A stretch of DNA of 64,000 bases from Herpetosiphonaceae bacterium (GTDB lineage: Bacteria; Chloroflexota; Chloroflexia; Chloroflexales; Herpetosiphonaceae): assembly GCA_013538855.1 (NCBI GenBank), contig JABXJS010000191.1:1-64000 (forward strand), written 5' to 3'. The position numbers and the translations under genes are program-made. The notes under the pieces were generated by a model. It ran no database searches. It was not told the origin of the DNA and worked only from the letters and a program-made list of their open reading frames with translations. The first letter of the stretch is position 1. The number at the start of each line of letters is the position of its first letter. Of this stretch, positions 41,086 through 56,688 are shown one piece after another.

Positions 41086-41415
41086 ATGATGATCCATCAG
41101 CTTAATTTGCCAATTCATATATCGGAAAAGCAATTAGAGGTGATCTGTCAGCGCTGGCATATTCGTGAGCTAGCGGTGTTTGGCTCCATACTTCATGGTA
41201 ATTTCACACCGGAGAGCGATATTGATCTCTTGCTTTCATTCGACGAAGATGCCCAGATTGGATTTCGCGAGCTGGCAGGCGTTGAGGATGATCTGGGCGC
41301 ATTGTTTGGGCGGCAAGTCGATATCTCAACTCGCGCCGCAATAGAAGCAAGCCAAAATTGGATTATTCGGCGTGAAATACTCGATCATGCAGAGGTGCTC
41401 TATGCGCGATCGTGA
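41086..41415 (+). CDS. mntA: MntA-type nucleotidyltransferase antitoxin
   Basis: The protein has 109 residues. It has the minimal nucleotidyltransferase fold with GS at 33-34 and the D45-x-D47 pair in ESDIDLLL, the GSX10DXD pattern. Such proteins act as antitoxins that adenylylate the tyrosine of the paired HEPN toxin (shown for the Shewanella MntA/HepT system). The toxin gene overlaps its end by 14 bases. The base composition is AT-richer than the neighbours, suggesting a mobile origin. The ATGATG start has no strong ribosome site. Confidence 0.85.
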   Translation: MMIHQLNLPIHISEKQLEVICQRWHIRELAVFGSILHGNFTPESDIDLLLSFDEDAQIGFRELAGVEDDLGALFGRQVDISTRAAIEASQNWIIRREILDHAEVLYARS

Positions 41416-41746
41416 TGCAGCACCTCTTATCCATATTTTCACTGCTGCCACCTTCATCGTTCAGCATACCGGAGTCCTGCAGAAATCCGAATTTCTCACA
41501 GATGCTGTATTGCAGAAGGCAGTACTCTACGAACTGCTTACAATTGGCGAAGCTGTAAAACGTTTGTCGGCAGAATTTCAACAAAAGCACGCGGATATTC
41601 CATGGTCTTCGATTGCCCGAACTCGTGATCGAGTTATCCATGGCTATGATCGAATCGACCTGAACATCATCTGGAATATCATCACAGCAGACATACCAAC
41701 ATTGCTGCATGCTATACAGCCGTTGTTGCCGACAGAAGAAGCGTAG
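41402..41746 (+). CDS. hepT: HepT-type HEPN toxin (RNase)
   Basis: The protein has 114 residues from the ATG at 41402. It is all-helical with the HEPN catalytic motif R75-x4-H80-x-Y82 in RTRDRVIHGYDR; Y82 is the expected site of adenylylation by the partner antitoxin. Active HEPN toxins cleave RNA. The 14-base overlap with mntA ensures joint expression. The set of motif residues is intact, so the pair could be functional. An earlier ATG at 41372 inside the antitoxin gene is less likely. Confidence 0.85.
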   Translation: MRDRDAAPLIHIFTAATFIVQHTGVLQKSEFLTDAVLQKAVLYELLTIGEAVKRLSAEFQQKHADIPWSSIARTRDRVIHGYDRIDLNIIWNIITADIPTLLHAIQPLLPTEEA

Positions 41747-41842
41747 CGAGCATTTGTGCAGGTTGTAGCACTTTGGGCCAATTTTGGCCGCTGTGGGGGC
41801 TGGATCGGGCGCTTTTTCGTACAACATAGCCAAAAACAGGGG

Positions 41843-41871
41843 TTGACAAGCGGCGCAGCAGCGGCTATACT
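41843..41871 (+). promoter_or_regulatory. Promoter of the ilv-leu operon
   Basis: TTGACA at 41843-41848 and TATACT at 41866-41871 are exactly 17 bases apart, close to the sigma-70 consensus. Transcription should start near 41878 and give a leader of about 490 bases before ilvD. Confidence 0.88.
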
Positions 41872-41906
41872 GCCAGCCAACGAACTTCTCTTAAGGATTA
41901 TTTCCT

Positions 41907-41996
41907 ATGACCCGTGCTTCCAACAGCGTATTTATTCTCGTACTCCTTAGCCTCGTAATTATTATTACGCGGCTAAAACGCGTTGGGAGGGGCTAA
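41907..41996 (+). CDS. Branched-chain amino acid-rich leader peptide of the ilv-leu operon
   Basis: A 29-codon frame starts at an ATG preceded by AAGGA and ends with TAA at 41994-41996. It encodes MTRASNSVFILVLLSLVIII (first 20) and TRLKRVGRG. Thirteen residues are Ile (4), Leu (5) or Val (4), most of them in one uninterrupted stretch. This is the composition expected of an attenuation leader that senses charged tRNA-Ile, -Leu and -Val. It lies just after the promoter and before a terminator with a competing structure. The peptide itself probably has no function. Confidence 0.85.
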   Translation: MTRASNSVFILVLLSLVIIITRLKRVGRG

Positions 41997-42062
41997 CAAG
42001 CCTCACGGGACTTCAAAGAGCGACACCAGACCCCTCCCCAACCACTTGGGTAGGGGTTTTTT
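41947..42062 (+). promoter_or_regulatory. Transcription attenuator (pause hairpin, antiterminator and terminator)
   Basis: Three structures can be read. A pause hairpin, 41947-41976, pairs TTAGCC...CGTAAT with ATTACG...GGCTAA inside the Ile/Leu/Val codons. The terminator pairs 42031-42041 (CCCCTCCCCAA) with 42046-42056 (TTGGGTAGGGG), one mismatch, followed by six T at 42057-42062. GGGAGGGG at 41985-41992, overlapping the end of the leader frame, is perfectly complementary to CCCCTCCC at 42031-42038, so it can form an antiterminator. A ribosome stalled on the codon run leaves 41985-41992 free; one at the stop codon covers it and the terminator forms. A local hairpin 41989-42004 may compete. 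Confidence 0.85.
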
Positions 42063-42084
42063 GATGGACAGAAAGGGATCGGCC

Positions 42085-42183
42085 ATGCACATGCTGAAAC
42101 AACTCATCGCCGCCATACTGCCCGCCCGCCGCGCTCCCAAGCTGGTCCCCATTCCCATTCGCCGCCAGCTTCGGCGGCGCTAA
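42085..42183 (+). CDS. Short basic frame between the attenuator and ilvD
   Basis: A 32-codon frame starts MHMLKQLIAAILPARRAPKL and ends IRRQLRRR. AAAGGGA precedes its ATG; an in-frame ATG at 42064 directly after the terminator T-run is another start. It is rich in Leu, Ile and Arg and could be a second leader peptide or an unrelated small protein. A perfect inverted repeat GTCACA-GCGA-TGTGAC (42195-42210) follows. Translation is unproven. Confidence 0.35.
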   Translation: MHMLKQLIAAILPARRAPKLVPIPIRRQLRRR

Positions 42184-42371
42184 GCCCGCTCCACGTCACA
42201 GCGATGTGACCAGCAGCACCATCGGGCACAGCCGCGCCCGCATCTGAGCACCGCCGCTCACTCACCTCACTGTTGAGCCTGTCCGTAGCGAAACCTGGCC
42301 CGCCCAAGGGTTAGCTTCGTGTACCCAAAATTCTGCCGATCTGCGGCCTGCGCCGCCAGTGGGGAGTATGT

Positions 42372-44054
42372 ATGCGATCCGACACCATCAAACAGGGGTT
42401 CGCCCGCGCGCCACATCGGGCCTTGCTGCGAGCCACCGGCCAGATCCGCGAAGATAGCGACTTCAAAAAGCCGTTCGTGGCCATCTGCAACTCATACATC
42501 GACATTATTCCGGGCCACGTGCACCTGCACGAGTTCGCCCAGGTTGTGAAGGAGGCCGTGCGCGCCGCCGGTGGCGTGCCGTTCGAGTTCAACACCATCG
42601 GCGTCGACGACGGCATCGTGATGGGCCACGAGGGCATGCGCTACTCGCTGCCGTCGCGCGAGCTGATCGCCGACTGCGTGGAGACCGTTGCCGGCGCACA
42701 CTGCTTCGATGCGATGATCTGCATTCCCAACTGCGACAAGATCGTGCCGGGCATGCTGATGGGCGCAGCGCGCGTCAACATTCCCACCGTGTTTGTCTCC
42801 GGCGGCCCCATGCAGGCCGGCCGCGACCAGAGCGGCCAGAAGGTCGATCTGATCAGCGTGTTCGAGGGCGTCGGCCAGCACGCCTCCGGCCGCATCAGCG
42901 ACGAGCGCCTGCTGGACCTGGAGCGCAACGGCTGCCCCACCTGCGGCTCGTGCTCGGGCATGTTCACCGCCAACTCGATGAACTGTCTCTGCGAAGCGCT
43001 CGGCATCGCCCTGCCCTACAACGGCTCGCTGCTCGCCACCGACCCGCAGCGCCTGGAGCTAGCCCGCAGCGCCGCCAGCGCCGTGATGGCCATGCTCGAG
43101 CGCGGCATCACCTTCCGCGACATCGTCACGCCCGAAGCGATCGACAACGCCATGGCCCTCGATGTGGCGATGGGCGGCTCGACCAACACCGTGCTGCACG
43201 TGCTGGCGCTGGCCCGCGAGGCCGCTGTCGACTACCCGATCAGCCGCTTCAACGAGGTCGCCGAGCGCGTCCCGCACCTGGCCAAGGTCAGCCCGGCCTG
43301 GGATGGCGACCGCCAGTGGCACATGGAGGACGTGCACGCGGCCGGCGGCGTACCAGCGATCCTGGCCGAGCTAAAGCACAAGCCCGACGCGCTGCACCTC
43401 GACGCGCTGACCGTCAGCGGCGTTACGCTAGGCGAGCAGCTCGAGGGCGTTGTCAACCAGAACCCTGAGTGCATTCGGCCGATCGATCAGCCGCACTCCG
43501 AGCGCGGCGGCCTGTGCATCCTGTTTGGCAATCTGGCCCCGGAAGGCTCGGTGGTCAAGATCGGCGCTGTCGATCAGCACCAGCTGACCTTCCGTGGCCC
43601 GGCGCGCTGCTTCAACAGCGAGGAGGACGCCACCTGGGCCGCGCGCTCCGGCGTGATCCAGCCTGGCGAGGTGGTGGTGGTGCGCTACGAGGGACCGCGC
43701 GGCGGCCCCGGCATGCGCGAGATGCTGGCGCTCACGTCGCTGCTCAAGGGCATGCCCCTGGGCGAGCAGGTGGCGCTGCTGACTGATGGCCGCTTCAGCG
43801 GCGGCACGCGCGGCCTGTGCATCGGCCACATCTCGCCCGAGGCCGCTGAGTGCGGCCCCATCGGCCTTATCCAAGATGGCGATATCGTCGAGATTGACCT
43901 GCCTGGACGAGTATTGCAGGTTGCTGTCGCTGATGCTGAGCTAGCCGCGCGCCGTGCCAGCTGGCAGGCCCCGGCGGCCAAATACGCGCGTGGCTGGCTG
44001 AGCCGCTACACGCGCCTCGTGACCAACGCCAGCAACGGAGCCGTTCTCGAGTAG
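42372..44054 (+). CDS. ilvD: Dihydroxy-acid dehydratase
   Basis: The protein has 560 residues, the usual length. It converts 2,3-dihydroxy-isovalerate and 2,3-dihydroxy-3-methylvalerate to the 2-oxo acids for valine, leucine and isoleucine. Conserved blocks are [52 protein letters not shown] with Fe-S ligand C121, and [20 protein letters not shown] with C194. C39 in AICNSY occupies the position of the third cluster ligand, consistent with a [2Fe-2S] or [4Fe-4S] enzyme. It is the first structural gene of the operon, 309 bases after the attenuator T-run. Confidence 0.96.
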
Positions 44055-44085
44055 CCGCCGCCTCAGGCGCAAAGGAGCAACGATT

Positions 44086-45792
<1,707 letters not shown>

Positions 45793-45859
45793 CAGTGCGT
45801 CAGCACCGGCCAGAGACGTTTGAAGCCAGCGCTTCAGCCTAAGATAAGGAGCCATCCAG

Positions 45860-46375
45860 ATGAAACATACACTTGTTGCCCTGCTCCGCGATCAGCCTGG
45901 CGTGCTCAACCGCGCCGTCAGCCTGTTTCGCCGCCGTGGGTTCAATATCGAAAGCCTCACCGTGGGCCACTCCGAGCAGCCGGGCATCTCGCGCATGACG
46001 CTGGTGGTGGACGGCGATAACACCAGCGTCGAGCAGGTGATCAAGCAGCTCTACAAGCTGATCGACGTGCTCAAGGTCAGCGATGTGACCGCCGACGCCA
46101 ATGTGTCGCGCGAGCTGGTGCTGGCCAAGGTCTTCGCGCCGCCCGCCCGCCGCAGCGACCTGATGCAGATCGCCGATATTTTCGGCGCACGGGTGGTCGA
46201 TGTCACCCCCGACAGCCTGATGGTCGAGCTAACCAGCGAGCCGGACGCCGCCGACCGCTTCATCGACCTGCTCAAATCGTTTGGCATCCGCGAGATGGTG
46301 CGCACCGGCTGCGTCGCCATGGTTCGCGGCAGCAGCACCGTCAGCGCGCCCAAAAGCGTTGATCGCGCCGCCTGA
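45860..46375 (+). CDS. ilvN: Acetohydroxyacid synthase, small (regulatory) subunit
   Basis: The protein has 171 residues, normal for a full-length small subunit. Residues 1-75 form an ACT domain (HTLVALLRDQPGVLNRAVSL and GFNIESLTVGHSE), which binds valine for feedback inhibition. Residues 80-160 form the second ferredoxin-like domain (ELVLAKVFAP, GARVVDVTPDSLMVELTSE). It activates the IlvB subunit. AAGGAG precedes the ATG. It is sometimes called ilvH. Confidence 0.95.
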   Translation: MKHTLVALLRDQPGVLNRAVSLFRRRGFNIESLTVGHSEQPGISRMTLVVDGDNTSVEQVIKQLYKLIDVLKVSDVTADANVSRELVLAKVFAPPARRSDLMQIADIFGARVVDVTPDSLMVELTSEPDAADRFIDLLKSFGIREMVRTGCVAMVRGSSTVSAPKSVDRAA

Positions 46376-46434
46376 CGCGCGCTTTTTGTACCGCGTTCGA
46401 TCAATCGCACATGTTTAATCAAAGGAGACACACC

Positions 46435-46590
46435 ATGGAGCGCTACGAGATGACCAGCACGCCCGCCAGCGACACCGCCGCGCCGACCACGCCCGCCGCC
46501 GACACGGCCAAGGCCAAATACGCCGACGAGGACATGAACTGGAACCTGTGGTGGGGCGAGTATATGGACGACGTCCAGGCCAGCGCCTAG
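46435..46590 (+). CDS. 51-residue protein of unknown function inside the ilv operon
   Basis: AAAGGAG precedes an ATG that opens a 51-codon frame: a Thr/Ala/Pro-rich N-terminal half (MERYEMTSTPASDTAAP...) and an acidic, aromatic C-terminal half containing YADEDMNWNLWWGEYMDDV. There are three Trp within six residues. No signal peptide, span or known domain is seen. It sits 59 bases after ilvN and 127 bases before ilvC on the same strand. The good ribosome site and operon position support translation; coding bias agrees with neighbours. It might be a small regulator or partner of one of the enzymes, but that is speculation. Confidence 0.65.
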   Translation: MERYEMTSTPASDTAAPTTPAADTAKAKYADEDMNWNLWWGEYMDDVQASA

Positions 46591-46702
46591 GACCGCGCCT
46601 GATCCAGCGGCTCAGTGTTGAGAGCGACAGTGTCGTCGGGCTGGAGTTAAGCACACGCTAGCAAGCTACCTGTATGCGCTGCACACGGCGCACTGTGATT
46701 GA

Positions 46703-47731
<1,029 letters not shown>

Positions 47732-47869
47732 CTGCGCGTCGGTCGGAACCAGATCGCTGTGCTTAATCAACTGACATCGGCCACCACCTCGGTGCTGCGT
47801 AAGCGAAGGTAGGAGTTGGAGCAAGCAGCTTCAGCGCGCGCCGAGCAGGGGCCATCAGGAGCGAATGTA

Positions 47870-49537
<1,668 letters not shown>

Positions 49538-50395
49538 ATGACGCACGATCCGCAGTCGGTGGCCTATCTCGGCCCCGTTGGCACCTGGAGCGAGCTGGCC
49601 GCGCGCCAGATCGGCGGCTCCGACGCCACCTTTCTGCCGCTCACCAGCATGCCCGCTGTCGTCACGGCCGTCGAGACCGGCGCCGCCAGCGTGGGCGTCC
49701 TGCCGATCGAGAACGCGCTAGAGGGCAGCGTCAGCACGACGCTCGATGTGCTGATCCACGAGACCCGCCTGCGGATCGTCCGCGAGATTGTGCTGCCGAT
49801 TCGCAATGTGCTGGCCGCACGGCCTGGCCTCAGCCTCGATGCCATCGAGGTGCTCTATTCGCACCCGCAGCCGCTGGCCCAGAGCCGCCGCTTCGTCGAG
49901 CGCTGCCTGCCCAGCGTCGCCACTGTCGCCGCGCTGAGCACCGCCGCTGCCCTGCGCGATGCCCTGGCCGACGAGCGCCGCGCTGCTGCGCTGACCACCG
50001 GCCATGCCGCCGCCCAAGCTGGCGCAGTGGTGCTCGCCCGCTCGATTCAGGATCGCGACAACAACTGCACGCGCTTCGTGGTGCTTGCGCCCTACGACGC
50101 ACCGCCTAGCGGCAACGACAAGACCTCGCTGGCCTTTACGCTGCGCGACAACCGGGCCGGCGCGCTCTACCGCGTGCTGGAGCTGTTCGCCCGCGCCAAC
50201 ATCAACCTGTCGAAGATCGAGTCGCGCCCAACCAAGGCCGAGCTAGGCGACTATGTGTTTCTGCTCGATCTCGATGGCCATCGCGAGGATGCCGCCGTCG
50301 CCCGCGCCCTGCGCGACCTTGAGCAGCACGCGGCCACGCTCAAGCTGTTCGGCAGCTACCCGCGCTCACCAGCGCCTGTCACCACGGACGACTAA
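49538..50395 (+). CDS. pheA: Prephenate dehydratase
   Basis: The protein has 285 residues, the monofunctional length. The catalytic domain starts VAYLGPVGTWSELAA and includes IENALEGSVSTTLD and the active-site block DNNCTRFVVL with its Thr-Arg-Phe. A C-terminal ACT domain (GALYRVLELFARANINLSKIESRP) should bind phenylalanine. It turns prephenate into phenylpyruvate. Its ATG directly follows the leuA stop, so it is locked into the branched-chain operon although it serves another pathway. The ribosome site lies inside leuA (TTGGAGG). Confidence 0.94.
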   Translation: MTHDPQSVAYLGPVGTWSELAARQIGGSDATFLPLTSMPAVVTAVETGAASVGVLPIENALEGSVSTTLDVLIHETRLRIVREIVLPIRNVLAARPGLSLDAIEVLYSHPQPLAQSRRFVERCLPSVATVAALSTAAALRDALADERRAAALTTGHAAAQAGAVVLARSIQDRDNNCTRFVVLAPYDAPPSGNDKTSLAFTLRDNRAGALYRVLELFARANINLSKIESRPTKAELGDYVFLLDLDGHREDAAVARALRDLEQHAATLKLFGSYPRSPAPVTTDD

Positions 50396-50535
50396 ATCTT
50401 CCGGGCAGGCACAACTCTCGCTTCCAGCGCAACGGCGCGGCTGGAATCAGCGGCGCTGTCTACGACGATGTGGGCACTCCAAACGCTACGCTTAGGTTAC
50501 TGTAGCGCTGCGCCTGCCTGCATAAGGAGCACGCA

Positions 50536-52128
<1,593 letters not shown>

Positions 52129-52216
52129 CGCGGCGCAGCGTTGAAGAAAATGCACGCGCAGCTTAAACTTAGCAGTACACAGAACCACGACCTAGCACAA
52201 GGAGCATAGAGCAACA

Positions 52217-52282
52217 ATGGCGTTCCTATGTTCTGTGTTGCGCTCTTGTTCTTGTGCGGAAGCGAAAGCGAGGAAATCCTGA
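52217..52282 (+). CDS. 21-codon upstream frame coupled to ilvE
   Basis: AAGGAG precedes an ATG opening a frame that reads MAFLCSVLRSCSCAEAKARK plus one more Ser; its TGA (52280-52282) overlaps the ilvE ATG at 52282. Four of 21 residues are Cys and four are Ser. It could couple or modulate ilvE translation. Translation is inferred from the ribosome site only. Confidence 0.4.
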   Translation: MAFLCSVLRSCSCAEAKARKS

Positions 52283-53211
52283 TGGCCGGTATCAATCCAA
52301 CCAAATCGATTTGGATGAATGGCGAGCTGATCCCGTGGGAAAACGCCACCGTGCACGTGATGACTCACGCGCTGCACTATGGATCGTCGGTGTTTGAGGG
52401 CATTCGCGCCTACAAGACACCCAACGGCACCGCCATTTTTCGCTTGCAACCGCACCTGCGTCGCCTGATCGACTCTGCCCGCATCTACCGCATGCAGATC
52501 GACTACTCGGTCGAGCAGCTCACCCAGGCCTGCCACGCCGTGGTCCACACGAATGGCCTCGAGTCCGCCTATCTGCGCCCGCTGGTCTGGCGCGGCTACG
52601 GCACGCTTGGCGTCAACCCCACCAAAGCGCCTGTCGAGACCATGATCGCCGCCATCGAGTGGGGCGCGTACCTGGGGGCCGAGGGCCTGGAGCAGGGCGT
52701 TGATGTCTGCGTCTCCTCGTGGAATCGCCCGGCCGCCAATACGTTCCCAACCATGGCCAAGGCCGGCGGCAACTATTTGTCGTCGCAGCTAATTGTCATG
52801 GAAGCGACGCGCAATGGGTTTACCGAGGGCATCGCGCTCGATGTCCACGGTCGGCTCAGCGAGGGCAGCGGCGAAAACCTGTTTATCATCCGCGATAACG
52901 TGATCTATACCACGCCGGTTACCGCCGCCATCCTCCCTGGCATCACCCGCGACACGGTGCTGACGCTCGCCGAGGAGCACGGCTACGAGATCCGCGAGCA
53001 AAATATGCCCCGCGAGATGCTCTACCTGGCCGACGAAATCTTCTTCACCGGCACCGCCGCCGAGATCACGCCCATTCGCTCGGTCGATGGCATGACCATC
53101 GGTGAGGGCCGCCGTGGCCCGATCACCACCGAGCTGCAAAAGTCTTTCTTTGGCCTGTTCAGCGGCGAGACGCCCGATAAGTGGGGCTGGCTCGAGTACC
53201 GCGAATCCTAG
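52282..53211 (+). CDS. ilvE: Branched-chain amino acid aminotransferase
   Basis: The protein has 309 residues and belongs to fold-type IV PLP enzymes. Conserved features are MNGELIPWENATVHVMTHALHYG, FEGIRAY, the PLP lysine K160 in FPTMAKAGGNYLSS, and EGSGENLFIIRDN. It interconverts leucine, isoleucine and valine with their 2-oxo acids using glutamate. I chose the ATG at 52282, with GAGGAAAT upstream, over the frame start at 52228. A strong intrinsic terminator lies between it and leuC. Confidence 0.95.
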   Translation: MAGINPTKSIWMNGELIPWENATVHVMTHALHYGSSVFEGIRAYKTPNGTAIFRLQPHLRRLIDSARIYRMQIDYSVEQLTQACHAVVHTNGLESAYLRPLVWRGYGTLGVNPTKAPVETMIAAIEWGAYLGAEGLEQGVDVCVSSWNRPAANTFPTMAKAGGNYLSSQLIVMEATRNGFTEGIALDVHGRLSEGSGENLFIIRDNVIYTTPVTAAILPGITRDTVLTLAEEHGYEIREQNMPREMLYLADEIFFTGTAAEITPIRSVDGMTIGEGRRGPITTELQKSFFGLFSGETPDKWGWLEYRES

Positions 53212-53258
53212 ATCACCTGCGCTCCGCCCGCCGGAGCAGTCATCAATCCACTGAAGCA

Positions 53259-53301
53259 ACGGCGCTTGTTCTGGCTCTTGGCCAACAAGTGCCGTTTTTT
53301 T
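53259..53301 (+). terminator. Intrinsic terminator between ilvE and leuC
   Basis: A 12-bp stem (53259-53270 with 53284-53295, one G-U pair) encloses a 13-base loop and is followed by seven T at 53295-53301. It ends 12 bases before the leuC start, and the leuC ribosome site directly follows the T-run. A small GC hairpin (GCTCCG/CGGAGC) lies just upstream. It should lower or regulate leuCDB transcription relative to the ilv genes. Confidence 0.85.
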
Positions 53302-53313
53302 GAGGTAGGCACG

Positions 53314-54741
53314 ATGCCCAAAACATTGTTTGAGAAGGTCTGGGACGCCCACGTCGTCCAGGCCGCCGATGATCAATCGCCAGCGACGCTGTACATCGAT
53401 CTGCACCTCGTCCACGAGGTAACATCACCGCAGGCGTTCACGGTTCTGCGCGAGCGCGGCCTGCGCGTCCGCCGTCCCGATCACACCGTAGCGACGATGG
53501 ACCACAGCACGCCCACCACGCCGCGCGGTGCCGATGGCACGATCCCCGTCACCGATGCCGTCGCCCGCAAGCAGCTCGAGCAGCTCGTCGCCAACTGCCG
53601 CGAGTTTGGCATTCCGCTCTTCGAGCTAGGCACCGCCAACCAGGGCATCGTCCACGTCATCGGCCCCGAGCAGGGCCTGACTCAGCCGGGCATGACCATC
53701 GTCTGCGGCGACTCGCACACCAGCACCCATGGCGCATTCGGCGCGCTGGCCTTCGGCATCGGCACCAGCGAGGTCGGCCACGTGCTCGCCACGCAGTGCC
53801 TGCTGCAAAATAAGCCCAAAACCTGCGAGATTCGCGTTGAGGGCCAGCTCCAGCCTGGCGTCACCGCCAAAGATATCATCCTCGCGATCATCGCCGAGAT
53901 CGGCGTCGGCGGCGGCACGGGCTATGTGCTCGAGTACACCGGCTCGGCCATCCGCAGCCTCTCGATGGAAGAGCGCATGACCATCTGCAATATGTCCATC
54001 GAGGCCGGCGCACGCGCCGGCCTGATCGCCCCCGATGAGACCACCTTCGAGTGGCTCAAGGGCCGCCCGCACGCTCCCAAGGGCGCAGCGTGGGATCAGG
54101 CCGTCGCCGAGTGGCGCACGCTGCCCTCCGATCCCGGCGCAACCTACGACCACACCGTCGTGCTCGATGCCAACACCTTGGCCCCGATGATCACCTACGG
54201 CACCAATCCCGGCATGGGCATGCCCATCACCGGCCGCGTGCCCAGCCCCGCCGCCCAAGCCGACCACAGCCAGCGCATCGCGCTCGATAAGGCCCTCCAG
54301 TACATGGGCCTGGAGCCAGAGCAGGCGCTGCTCGACCATCCCATCGACGTGGTGTTCATCGGCTCCTGCACCAACTCGCGCATCACCGACCTGCGCGCCG
54401 CCGCCGATATTCTGCGCGGCAATCAGGTTGCGCCCGGCGTGCGCGTGCTCGTCGTCCCAGGCTCGCAGCAGGTCAAGGCCCAGGCCGAGGCCGAGGGCCT
54501 TGATCAGGTCTTCACCGCCGCCGGGGCCGAGTGGCGCGAGGCCGGCTGCTCGATGTGCATCGCGATGAACGGTGATCAACTCCAGCCCGGCCAGTATGCG
54601 GTCAGCACCAGCAATCGCAACTTCGAGGGCCGCCAGGGCCGCGGCGGGCGCACCTTCCTCGCTAGCCCGCTCACCGCCGCCGCCACCGCCATCGCCGGCC
54701 GCATCGCCGATGTGCGCGAGCTGCTTGGAGTAGCCGTATGA
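53314..54741 (+). CDS. leuC: 3-Isopropylmalate dehydratase, large subunit
   Basis: The protein has 475 residues. The [4Fe-4S] ligands are C352 in IGSCTNSR, C412 and C415 in GCSMC, the full aconitase-family set. Other blocks are [20 protein letters not shown] and [12 protein letters not shown]. With LeuD it converts 2-isopropylmalate to 3-isopropylmalate, and citramalate to 3-methylmalate in the CimA route. I chose the ATG at 53314 (GAGGT upstream), not the upstream TTG inside the terminator. The next gene starts within its stop codon. Confidence 0.95.
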
Positions 54742-54968
54742 CCCAGCATCAGAAGTGGCTGCGCCTCGCCCCCGCCGGTCTCGCCACCATCGGCTTCGGC
54801 CTGAGCCTGCTTGGCAACACGATGGAGCGCAAGGCCGCCGGCCAGCCCTGGTTCTGGCGCGGCACCGTCAGCCTCAGCGTGATCAATGCTGGCATGGCCC
54901 TGTTCGGCGAGGCGGTCAAAGCCCGCGCGCTCTATGAGTGGGCGCAGCAATCTCAGGAGGTGCTCTAG
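54738..54968 (+). CDS. 76-residue small membrane-like protein between leuC and leuD
   Basis: The start ATG overlaps the leuC stop (ATGA) and the TAG stop overlaps the leuD GTG (TAGTG), so it is translationally linked on both sides. The sequence has two moderately hydrophobic helices ([16 protein letters not shown] and [19 protein letters not shown]) separated by [16 protein letters not shown] do not recognise a family. It may be a membrane-associated protein or an assembly factor; no catalytic motif is visible. Perfect packing between two subunits of one enzyme argues it is translated. Confidence 0.7.
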
Positions 54969-55567
54969 TGGAGCCAATCACCACGTTCGCAGGCCGCGCT
55001 GTGGCCCTGCCCATCGAAAATATCGACACCGATCAGATCATCCCCGCGCGCTTTTTAAAAGTCACCGATAAGGCGGGCCTCGGCGATGCGCTCTTCTCCG
55101 ACTGGCGCGCTAATCCCGAGTTCATCCTCAACCAGCCCCACGCCGCTGGGGCCAAAATCCTCGTCGCTGGCCACAACTTCGGCTGTGGCTCATCGCGCGA
55201 GCACGCGCCCTGGGCGCTGCTGGGCTTCGGCTTTCAGGCCGTCGTCAGCACCTACTTCGCCGATATCTTCCGCAACAACGCGCTCAAAAATGGCCTGCTC
55301 CCCATCGTCGTCGATGCCGCGACCCTCGACCAGCTCATCAGCATGTGCGCGGAGGACCCCGACACGCTGCTCAGCGTCGATCTTGAGCAGCAGCTGCTGC
55401 TCCTCCCCGATGGTCGCCGCGTGCCGTTTCCCATCGATGCGTTCTCGAAGCACTGCCTCATCCACGGCGTCGATCAGCTCGGCTATCTCCAGGCGCAGGC
55501 CGCTGCCATCGCCGCCTACGAGGCCCGCCACCCCGATCGCGTGAACACGCTTGCCGCTGGTGCCTAG
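54968..55567 (+). CDS. leuD: 3-Isopropylmalate dehydratase, small subunit
   Basis: The protein has 199 residues from a GTG start at 54968 with AGGAGGTG upstream. Typical features are [15 protein letters not shown], the [18 protein letters not shown] substrate loop and [17 protein letters not shown]. It completes the dehydratase with LeuC. The in-frame ATG at 54938 lies within the preceding small gene and is rejected. leuB follows after 29 bases. Confidence 0.95.
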
Positions 55568-55596
55568 CCGCCAGTATGTTGATGAAAGGAAGCTCT

Positions 55597-56688
55597 ATGC
55601 AAGCAACAATTGCTCTTCTCCCTGGCGATGGCATCGGCCCCGAGGTGGTCGCCGAGGGCGTGCGTGTGCTCAACGCCGTCGCCGCAGCCTACGGCCACAG
55701 CTTCGCCTACCGTGAAGCCCTGCTCGGCGGCTGCGCCATCGACGCCACCGGTAGCCCGCTGCCCGCCGCTACCCTCGCCGCCTGCGAAGCCGCCGATGCG
55801 GTGCTGCTCGGCGCTGTCGGCGGCCCAAAGTGGGACGATCCACGTGCCAAGGTGCGCCCCGAGCAGGGCCTCCTCGGCCTGCGCAAGGCCCTCGGCCTCT
55901 ACGCCAACCTGCGCCCGGTCGCTGTCCCCGAGCAGCTCGCCGAACGCTCGCCCCTGCGTCCAGAGCTGGTCCGCGGCGTCGATTTGATCGTCGTCCGTGA
56001 GCTAACCGGCGGCATCTACTTCGGGGCCAAGGAGAGCGTCTTCATCCGCCCCGATGAGGAGCGCGCCTACGACACCTGTGTCTACACCACCTCCGAGATC
56101 GCCCGCGTCGTGCGCCGCGCCGCCGATCTCGCTCGCCAGCGCCGTGGCCTGCTCACCTCTGTCGATAAGGCCAATGTGCTGGAGACATCACGCCTCTGGC
56201 GGCGCGTCACCACCGAGATTGTCGCCCACGAGTATCCTGACCTGCGCCTTGAGCACATTCTGGTCGATGCCTGCGCCATGCATCTGCTGCGCCGCCCCGC
56301 CGACTTCGATGTGATCGTCACCGAAAATATGTTCGGCGATATTCTCACCGATGAGGCGTCGATGCTCACCGGCTCGCTGGGCATGCTCCCATCCGCCTCG
56401 CTCGGTGATGGTCAGCGCGGCCTCTATGAGCCGATCCACGGCAGCGCGCCTGACATCGCGGGCCAGGGTCGCGCCAATCCGCTGGCCACCATCCTCAGCA
56501 CCGCCCTGCTCCTGCGCCACTCGCTGGGCCTAGAGGCCGAGGCCGCAGCCGTCGAGGCCGCCGTCGCCGCCACCCTTGAGCAAGGCATTGTCACCGCCGA
56601 TCTTGCCGCAGCTGGCAGTGCCTACTCCACCGAGGCCGTCGGCACAGCGGTGGTCGCCGCTCTCCAGCGCCAGCCGGTCGCCGCCTAA
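55597..56688 (+). CDS. leuB: 3-Isopropylmalate dehydrogenase
   Basis: The protein has 363 residues. It begins [20 protein letters not shown] and contains GAVGGPKWD, the [17 protein letters not shown] helix that recognises the isopropyl group, [22 protein letters not shown] and the cofactor-binding [14 protein letters not shown]. It oxidises and decarboxylates 3-isopropylmalate using NAD, and possibly 3-methylmalate in the citramalate pathway. GAAAGGA precedes the ATG at 55597. It is the last gene of the operon and is followed by a hairpin. Confidence 0.96.

Follow-up and report, generated by a model that had tools for sequence, protein, structure and literature searches.

Leader-peptide attenuation has been described chiefly in Proteobacteria, Actinobacteria and some Firmicutes. 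One survey from 2010 noted that leader peptides had previously come from Proteobacteria and Actinobacteria only and added the Firmicutes (PMC2965389), and another from 2013, with five Chloroflexi genomes in its sample, suggested that amino-acid attenuators originated in the Gammaproteobacteria (PMC3766115). Among the described systems at ilv operons, the ilvB-II attenuator of Corynebacterium is backed by reporter evidence (PMC10272879). Here we describe a locus in a Herpetosiphonaceae bacterium (Chloroflexota), located on contig JABXJS010000191.1 of assembly GCA_013538855.1, of which positions 1 to 64,000 were analysed (hereafter the window). Ahead of its ilv-leu genes lies what is very probably a ribosome-mediated transcription attenuator sensing charged Ile, Leu and Val tRNAs, a reading to which we assign a probability of about 0.92. 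The mechanism is a textbook one and the lineage is one for which we found no published description, as a literature search returned no paper on leader attenuators of Chloroflexota; a comparative survey of bacterial attenuation by Lopatovskaya et al. 2010 (Mol Biol 44:128; cited in PMC4833913 and PMC10272879) might already include predictions of this kind. An initial annotation of the window had already proposed leader-peptide attenuation of the ilv-leu operon, and the comparison with relatives, the covariation and the folding described below all support that proposal.

Elements of the ilv-leu leader and their conservation

The near-consensus promoter, the 29-codon leader, the pause hairpin and the terminator named in that annotation are all present (Table 1), the hairpin as a fold prediction placed inside the sensor codons. 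A promoter scan of positions 41500-42500 returned the site preceding the leader as the sole strong promoter-like site. Ile, Leu and Val account for 13 of the 29 leader codons, and 11 of these 13 fall within codons 8-20, which we refer to as the sensor codons. The antiterminator strand GGGAGGGG is, as had been claimed, perfectly complementary over eight bases to CCCCTCCC in the terminator 5' arm, but it abuts the leader stop rather than overlapping it, since it ends one base ahead of the TAA (41994-41996). The terminator stem consists of 10 pairs with one mismatch and is followed by TTTTTT; a simple terminator scanner returned 0 terminators and thus overlooked it. As a whole, the fold of 41878-42070 is more stable than those of shuffled sequences (z = -4.9).

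Table 1. Coordinates of the leader elements, the second small frame and the downstream gene cluster in the window
Feature	Position	Strand	Remarks
Sigma-70-type promoter TTGACA-N17-TATACT	41843-41871	+	11/12 consensus bases match
Leader peptide MTRASNSVFILVLLSLVIIITRLKRVGRG*	41907-41996	+	ATG at 41907, TAA ending at 41996; 29 codons
Protector stem (segments 1:2)	41917-41989	+	Predicted fold; 41917-41929 with 41978-41989
Pause hairpin within sensor codons	41947-41976	+	12 pairs, one mismatch
Antiterminator strand (segment 2), GGGAGGGG	41985-41992	+	Codons 27-29
Terminator 5' arm (segment 3)	42031-42041	+	42031-42038 pairs with antiterminator
Terminator 3' arm (segment 4) and T run	42046-42062	+	Arm 42046-42056, T run 42057-42062
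Open reading frame 2 (ORF2), MHMLKQLIAAILPARRAPKLVPIPIRRQLRRR*	42085-42183	+	Conserved small frame with ribosome-binding site, between terminator and ilvD
ilvD, ilvB, ilvN, ilvC, leuA, pheA, cimA-like, ilvE-like, leuC, leuD, leuB	42372-56688	+	Pfam matches

Promoter, leader, hairpin core, antiterminator and terminator are common to eight genomes of the same family, the window's own included. Both promoter hexamers and their spacing are identical in all eight, and so are the inner 8 pairs of the hairpin (CC.CGTAAT/ATTACG.GG). The leader itself occurs in the family as three types (MTRASNSVFILVLLSLVIIITRLKRVGRG, MNARPNTFVVIILLLSLVIIITRSKLFGRG and MSNRPAFIIISNLLSLVIVVITRSLLCGRG), which share an identical end made up of the last codons and the stop, GGG AGG GGC TAA.

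In 87 genomes of the class, which probably belongs to the Chloroflexota, the sequence ahead of the first ilv gene, taken as ilvD if it heads the operon and otherwise as ilvB, was surveyed by an automatic search. This called for a frame of 14-45 codons in which 7 or more of 10 codons specify Ile, Leu or Val, for a terminator no more than 110 nucleotides away and for complementarity to the 5' arm of the latter. The architecture was found ahead of ilvD or ilvB in 73 of the 87 genomes, and in 70 (about 80%) the strand that complements the terminator lies close to the stop of the leader, compared with 2/870 dinucleotide shuffles, so that the leader frame is indeed kept upstream of ilv genes in relatives. 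One detection (G019) turned out to rest on a false terminator and was excluded from the later tests. The antiterminator starts between -27 and +7 nucleotides from the leader stop in 72/72 genomes, within a search limited to -30..+20, and the last sensor codon precedes it by a median of 28 nucleotides (10-90% range 21-35), as would be expected if the strand has to stay free when a ribosome stalls and has to be covered when a ribosome terminates. A promoter matching at least 9/12 consensus bases lies within 110 nucleotides upstream of the leader in 65/72 genomes and in 6% of shuffles. A few genomes from other classes of the phylum also seem to have the attenuator. A search of the window's own genome for His-leader attenuators by a pattern of five His codons gave no convincing leader.

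The complementarity between antiterminator and terminator covaries among relatives, as seen in concerted changes of the core pair. Its common form is GGGAGG/CCTCCC, while genera g5 and g10 of another family (f2) carry GCGGAAGG/CCTTCCGC (GGAAGG/CCTTCC), genus g8 of f2 carries GAGAGG/CCTCTC and genus g33 carries GGGGGGC/GCCCCCC. In both f2 variants the terminator 3' arm is altered too (GCGGAAGGG and GAGAGGG, respectively), meaning that segments 2, 3 and 4 co-vary. Leader tails are also more complementary to their own terminators than to re-paired ones (mean 18.5 versus 16.9, standard deviation 0.25; 0/20000 permutations, with no correction for relatedness).

Predicted switching by ribosome position

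The initial annotation had regarded the switch as different from the enterobacterial one because the antiterminator strand lies outside the pause hairpin. The folding speaks against this: in the predicted untranslated RNA of the window, 41985-41989 pairs with 41917-41921 and is hence sequestered in a stem that continues below the hairpin. The pause hairpin sits on top of this protector stem, which is closed by 41911-41916/42004-42009. As the antiterminator is predicted to form the 3' arm of the protector, which is the enteric logic, the proposed difference is not supported here. Among 30 folded genera, a protector is predicted in 19, compared with 36% of shuffles; it was not predicted in genus g3, G003 and several others.

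From the arrangement of these parts we infer ribosome stalling, coupling of transcription to translation, termination and readthrough in the cell, and the course of events could be imagined as follows. RNA polymerase would initiate about 30 nucleotides upstream of the leader ATG with a ribosome close behind. If charged Ile-, Leu- and Val-tRNAs are available, the ribosome would reach the stop codon and mask the antiterminator, the two terminator arms would pair, and transcription would stop at the T run. If these tRNAs are scarce, the ribosome would stall at one of codons 8-20 and block the pause and protector stems, and the freed GGGAGGGG would capture the terminator 5' arm ahead of synthesis of the 3' arm, such that transcription could proceed into ilvD and the further ilv-leu genes. 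Without any translation of the leader, GGGAGGGG would be sequestered by the protector stem and the terminator would form.

This scheme was modelled by folding, for each codon position, the RNA downstream of the leading edge of the ribosome up to just before the terminator 3' arm. The predicted antiterminator probability is about 1.0 with the A-site at codons 1-22; it is still 0.87 at codon 23, drops to 0.01 at codon 24 and is 0 beyond, which places the switch point at codons 22-24; without a ribosome it is 0.02 for the window RNA. Stalls at 11 of the 13 Ile/Leu/Val codons are predicted to free the antiterminator, and a ribosome on the stop codon would cover it. In silico, antiterminator and terminator folds are mutually exclusive, with the predicted availability of the antiterminator set by the position of the ribosome.

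Several observations weigh against an attenuator of this kind. The architecture went undetected in 14 of the 87 genomes, in some of them owing to contig ends or possibly to a different operon start, and just 11 of the 13 Ile/Leu/Val codons sit where stalling would clearly act. The modelled switch is weak or narrow in 2 of 18 genomes (G026 and G010), and for the closest relatives (G003, g3) the folding predicts antitermination by the untranslated RNA, meaning that the state without translation is not conserved. Equilibrium folds of truncated RNAs are, moreover, a mere proxy for co-transcriptional kinetics. With regard to the uncorrected permutation test, the f2 variants are clear despite relatedness, because f2 leaders pair poorly with standard terminator arms.

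A second small frame and competing explanations

Between the terminator and ilvD lies ORF2, whose homologues in more than 20 genomes of the order follow the consensus ~MxxIxRxIxxLxxxLxxPQxxLAPVPVxxRRxxxR, with an amphipathic N-terminus, a PQP...PVPVP segment that places Leu, Val and Ile codons between prolines, and an Arg-rich tail. No Pfam or NCBIfam match to ORF2 was found. A profile search of 82 genomes of the order gave 22 matches at E < 1e-5 (6.1e-9 for the window's own). The matches that were compared with ilv loci sit upstream of the first ilv gene, the contigs of G048 and G071 being untraced, and a weaker match in G018 (E 6e-4) lies on a contig different from that of its ilvB; significant matches are hence essentially only found at the heads of ilv operons. 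The pooled ratio of nonsynonymous to synonymous polymorphism (pN/pS) of 0.48 further suggests that selection acts on the peptide.

One could speculate from this conservation that control is two-tiered, with ORF2 as a second peptide sensor, by which the supply of branched-chain amino acids (BCAA) would be read twice, or an extra signal in addition to the attenuator. From our point of view this is doubtful, as many genomes with the attenuator do not have ORF2. Quite tentatively, the attenuator may then be half of a two-peptide leader and ORF2 a regulatory peptide of a new kind, namely a further sensor that the ribosome reads or else a small protein with an effect on BCAA synthesis. It was also considered whether ORF2 pairs with the ribosome-binding site of ilvD or ilvB and thereby attenuates translation, but this was rejected, the signal not exceeding that of permuted pairs.

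Two further observations concern the same spacer. Following ORF2, positions 42236-42280 (+ strand) form a DNA patch that is 87% identical to G003 over 45 bases, and two small inverted repeats within it (GAGC..GCTC and CTCA..TGAG) are kept in all eight family members. At three loci of another family of the class (L153, L200 and L201 in G082, G083 and G084), a different, very Ile/Leu/Val-rich frame (...ALPRPQILPVI...FFIII...VLILLGL) lies between terminator and ilvB and is perhaps a second leader.

It could also be imagined that a T-box or a ligand riboswitch, for instance of the ppGpp type, works the same terminator and that the short frame is incidental. T-boxes are known in the phylum from ileS, trpE and trpB-like genes of Dehalococcoides (PMC2494555), a single Rfam T-box match was found in the phylum in a genome of another class (L237, 3215-3442, minus strand), and ppGpp riboswitches govern ilv genes elsewhere (PMC10272879). 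A ligand-binding RNA would, however, account neither for the run of BCAA codons and its fixed distance from the antiterminator nor for the finding that the antiterminator lies at the leader stop. As Rfam gave no covariance-model match in the window at the gathering threshold, nor in 41800-42400 up to E = 5, this explanation was rejected and is, in our estimate, highly improbable.

That the leader is a genuine small hydrophobic membrane protein, with an ordinary terminator behind it and no switch involved, is equally hard to credit. Its hydrophobic stretch flanked by basic residues does resemble such proteins, but the residues drift from one family to another, in contrast to the run of Ile/Leu/Val codons, the terminator and the covarying antiterminator, all of which are retained. 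The third codon positions in the hairpin 5' arm are invariant in all eight family members, and eleven biosynthetic genes that are separated from a strong promoter by a terminator require a route for readthrough.

Downstream genes and comparison with known attenuators

The genes behind the attenuator had been described as a fused ilv-leu-pheA-cimA cluster. They are present and adjacent on the plus strand, but fused reading frames were not found. The cimA-like gene is a second LeuA-like gene and the ilvE-like gene encodes a class IV aminotransferase. Judging from the common strand and the gene order, the cluster probably forms one transcription unit; the intergenic gap of 342 nucleotides before ilvC leaves room for a further promoter. 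The position of pheA (prephenate dehydratase; 49538-50395, + strand) within the cluster means that Phe synthesis would follow BCAA supply, and Phe is encoded just once in the leader. The gene immediately ahead of the promoter encodes a HepT-like ribonuclease (41372-41746, + strand).

With the enterobacterial ilvGMEDA, ilvBN and leu attenuators the locus shares the BCAA-rich leader, the antiterminator 2:3, the terminator 3:4 and the target pathway, and a protector 1:2 is predicted for the RNA of the window. In contrast to these systems, the antiterminator lies in the last codons or just past the leader stop, so that the terminating ribosome itself would cover the strand; a combined ilv-leu-pheA-cimA cluster would be controlled; there is no Rfam match; and the protector is unpredicted in some relatives.

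The Corynebacterium ilvB-II motif, an upstream open reading frame (uORF) attenuator of ilvBNC, likewise combines a BCAA-rich uORF with a terminator/antiterminator switch before an ilv operon, but its uORF of 15-17 residues spans P1, its RNA structure is another one and it is restricted to Corynebacterium (PMC10272879). The ilvB-OMG and Leptospira ilvB motifs (PMC10272879) have predicted BCAA/Thr-rich uORFs ahead of ilvB as well; these are structured motifs of other lineages, whereas the window matches no Rfam family. For Staphylococcus aureus and Listeria, two papers (PMC5794164, PMC5864092) describe a leucine- or BCAA-related attenuator peptide at the ilv operon, and these attenuators act beside CodY.

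Overall, the architecture provides a ready rule for the prediction of BCAA control across the phylum as well as material for new covariance models. The conservation and covariation of an ilv attenuator across one class of so remote a phylum speak for a mechanism of greater age, or of more frequent emergence, than the proposed gammaproteobacterial origin would suggest.
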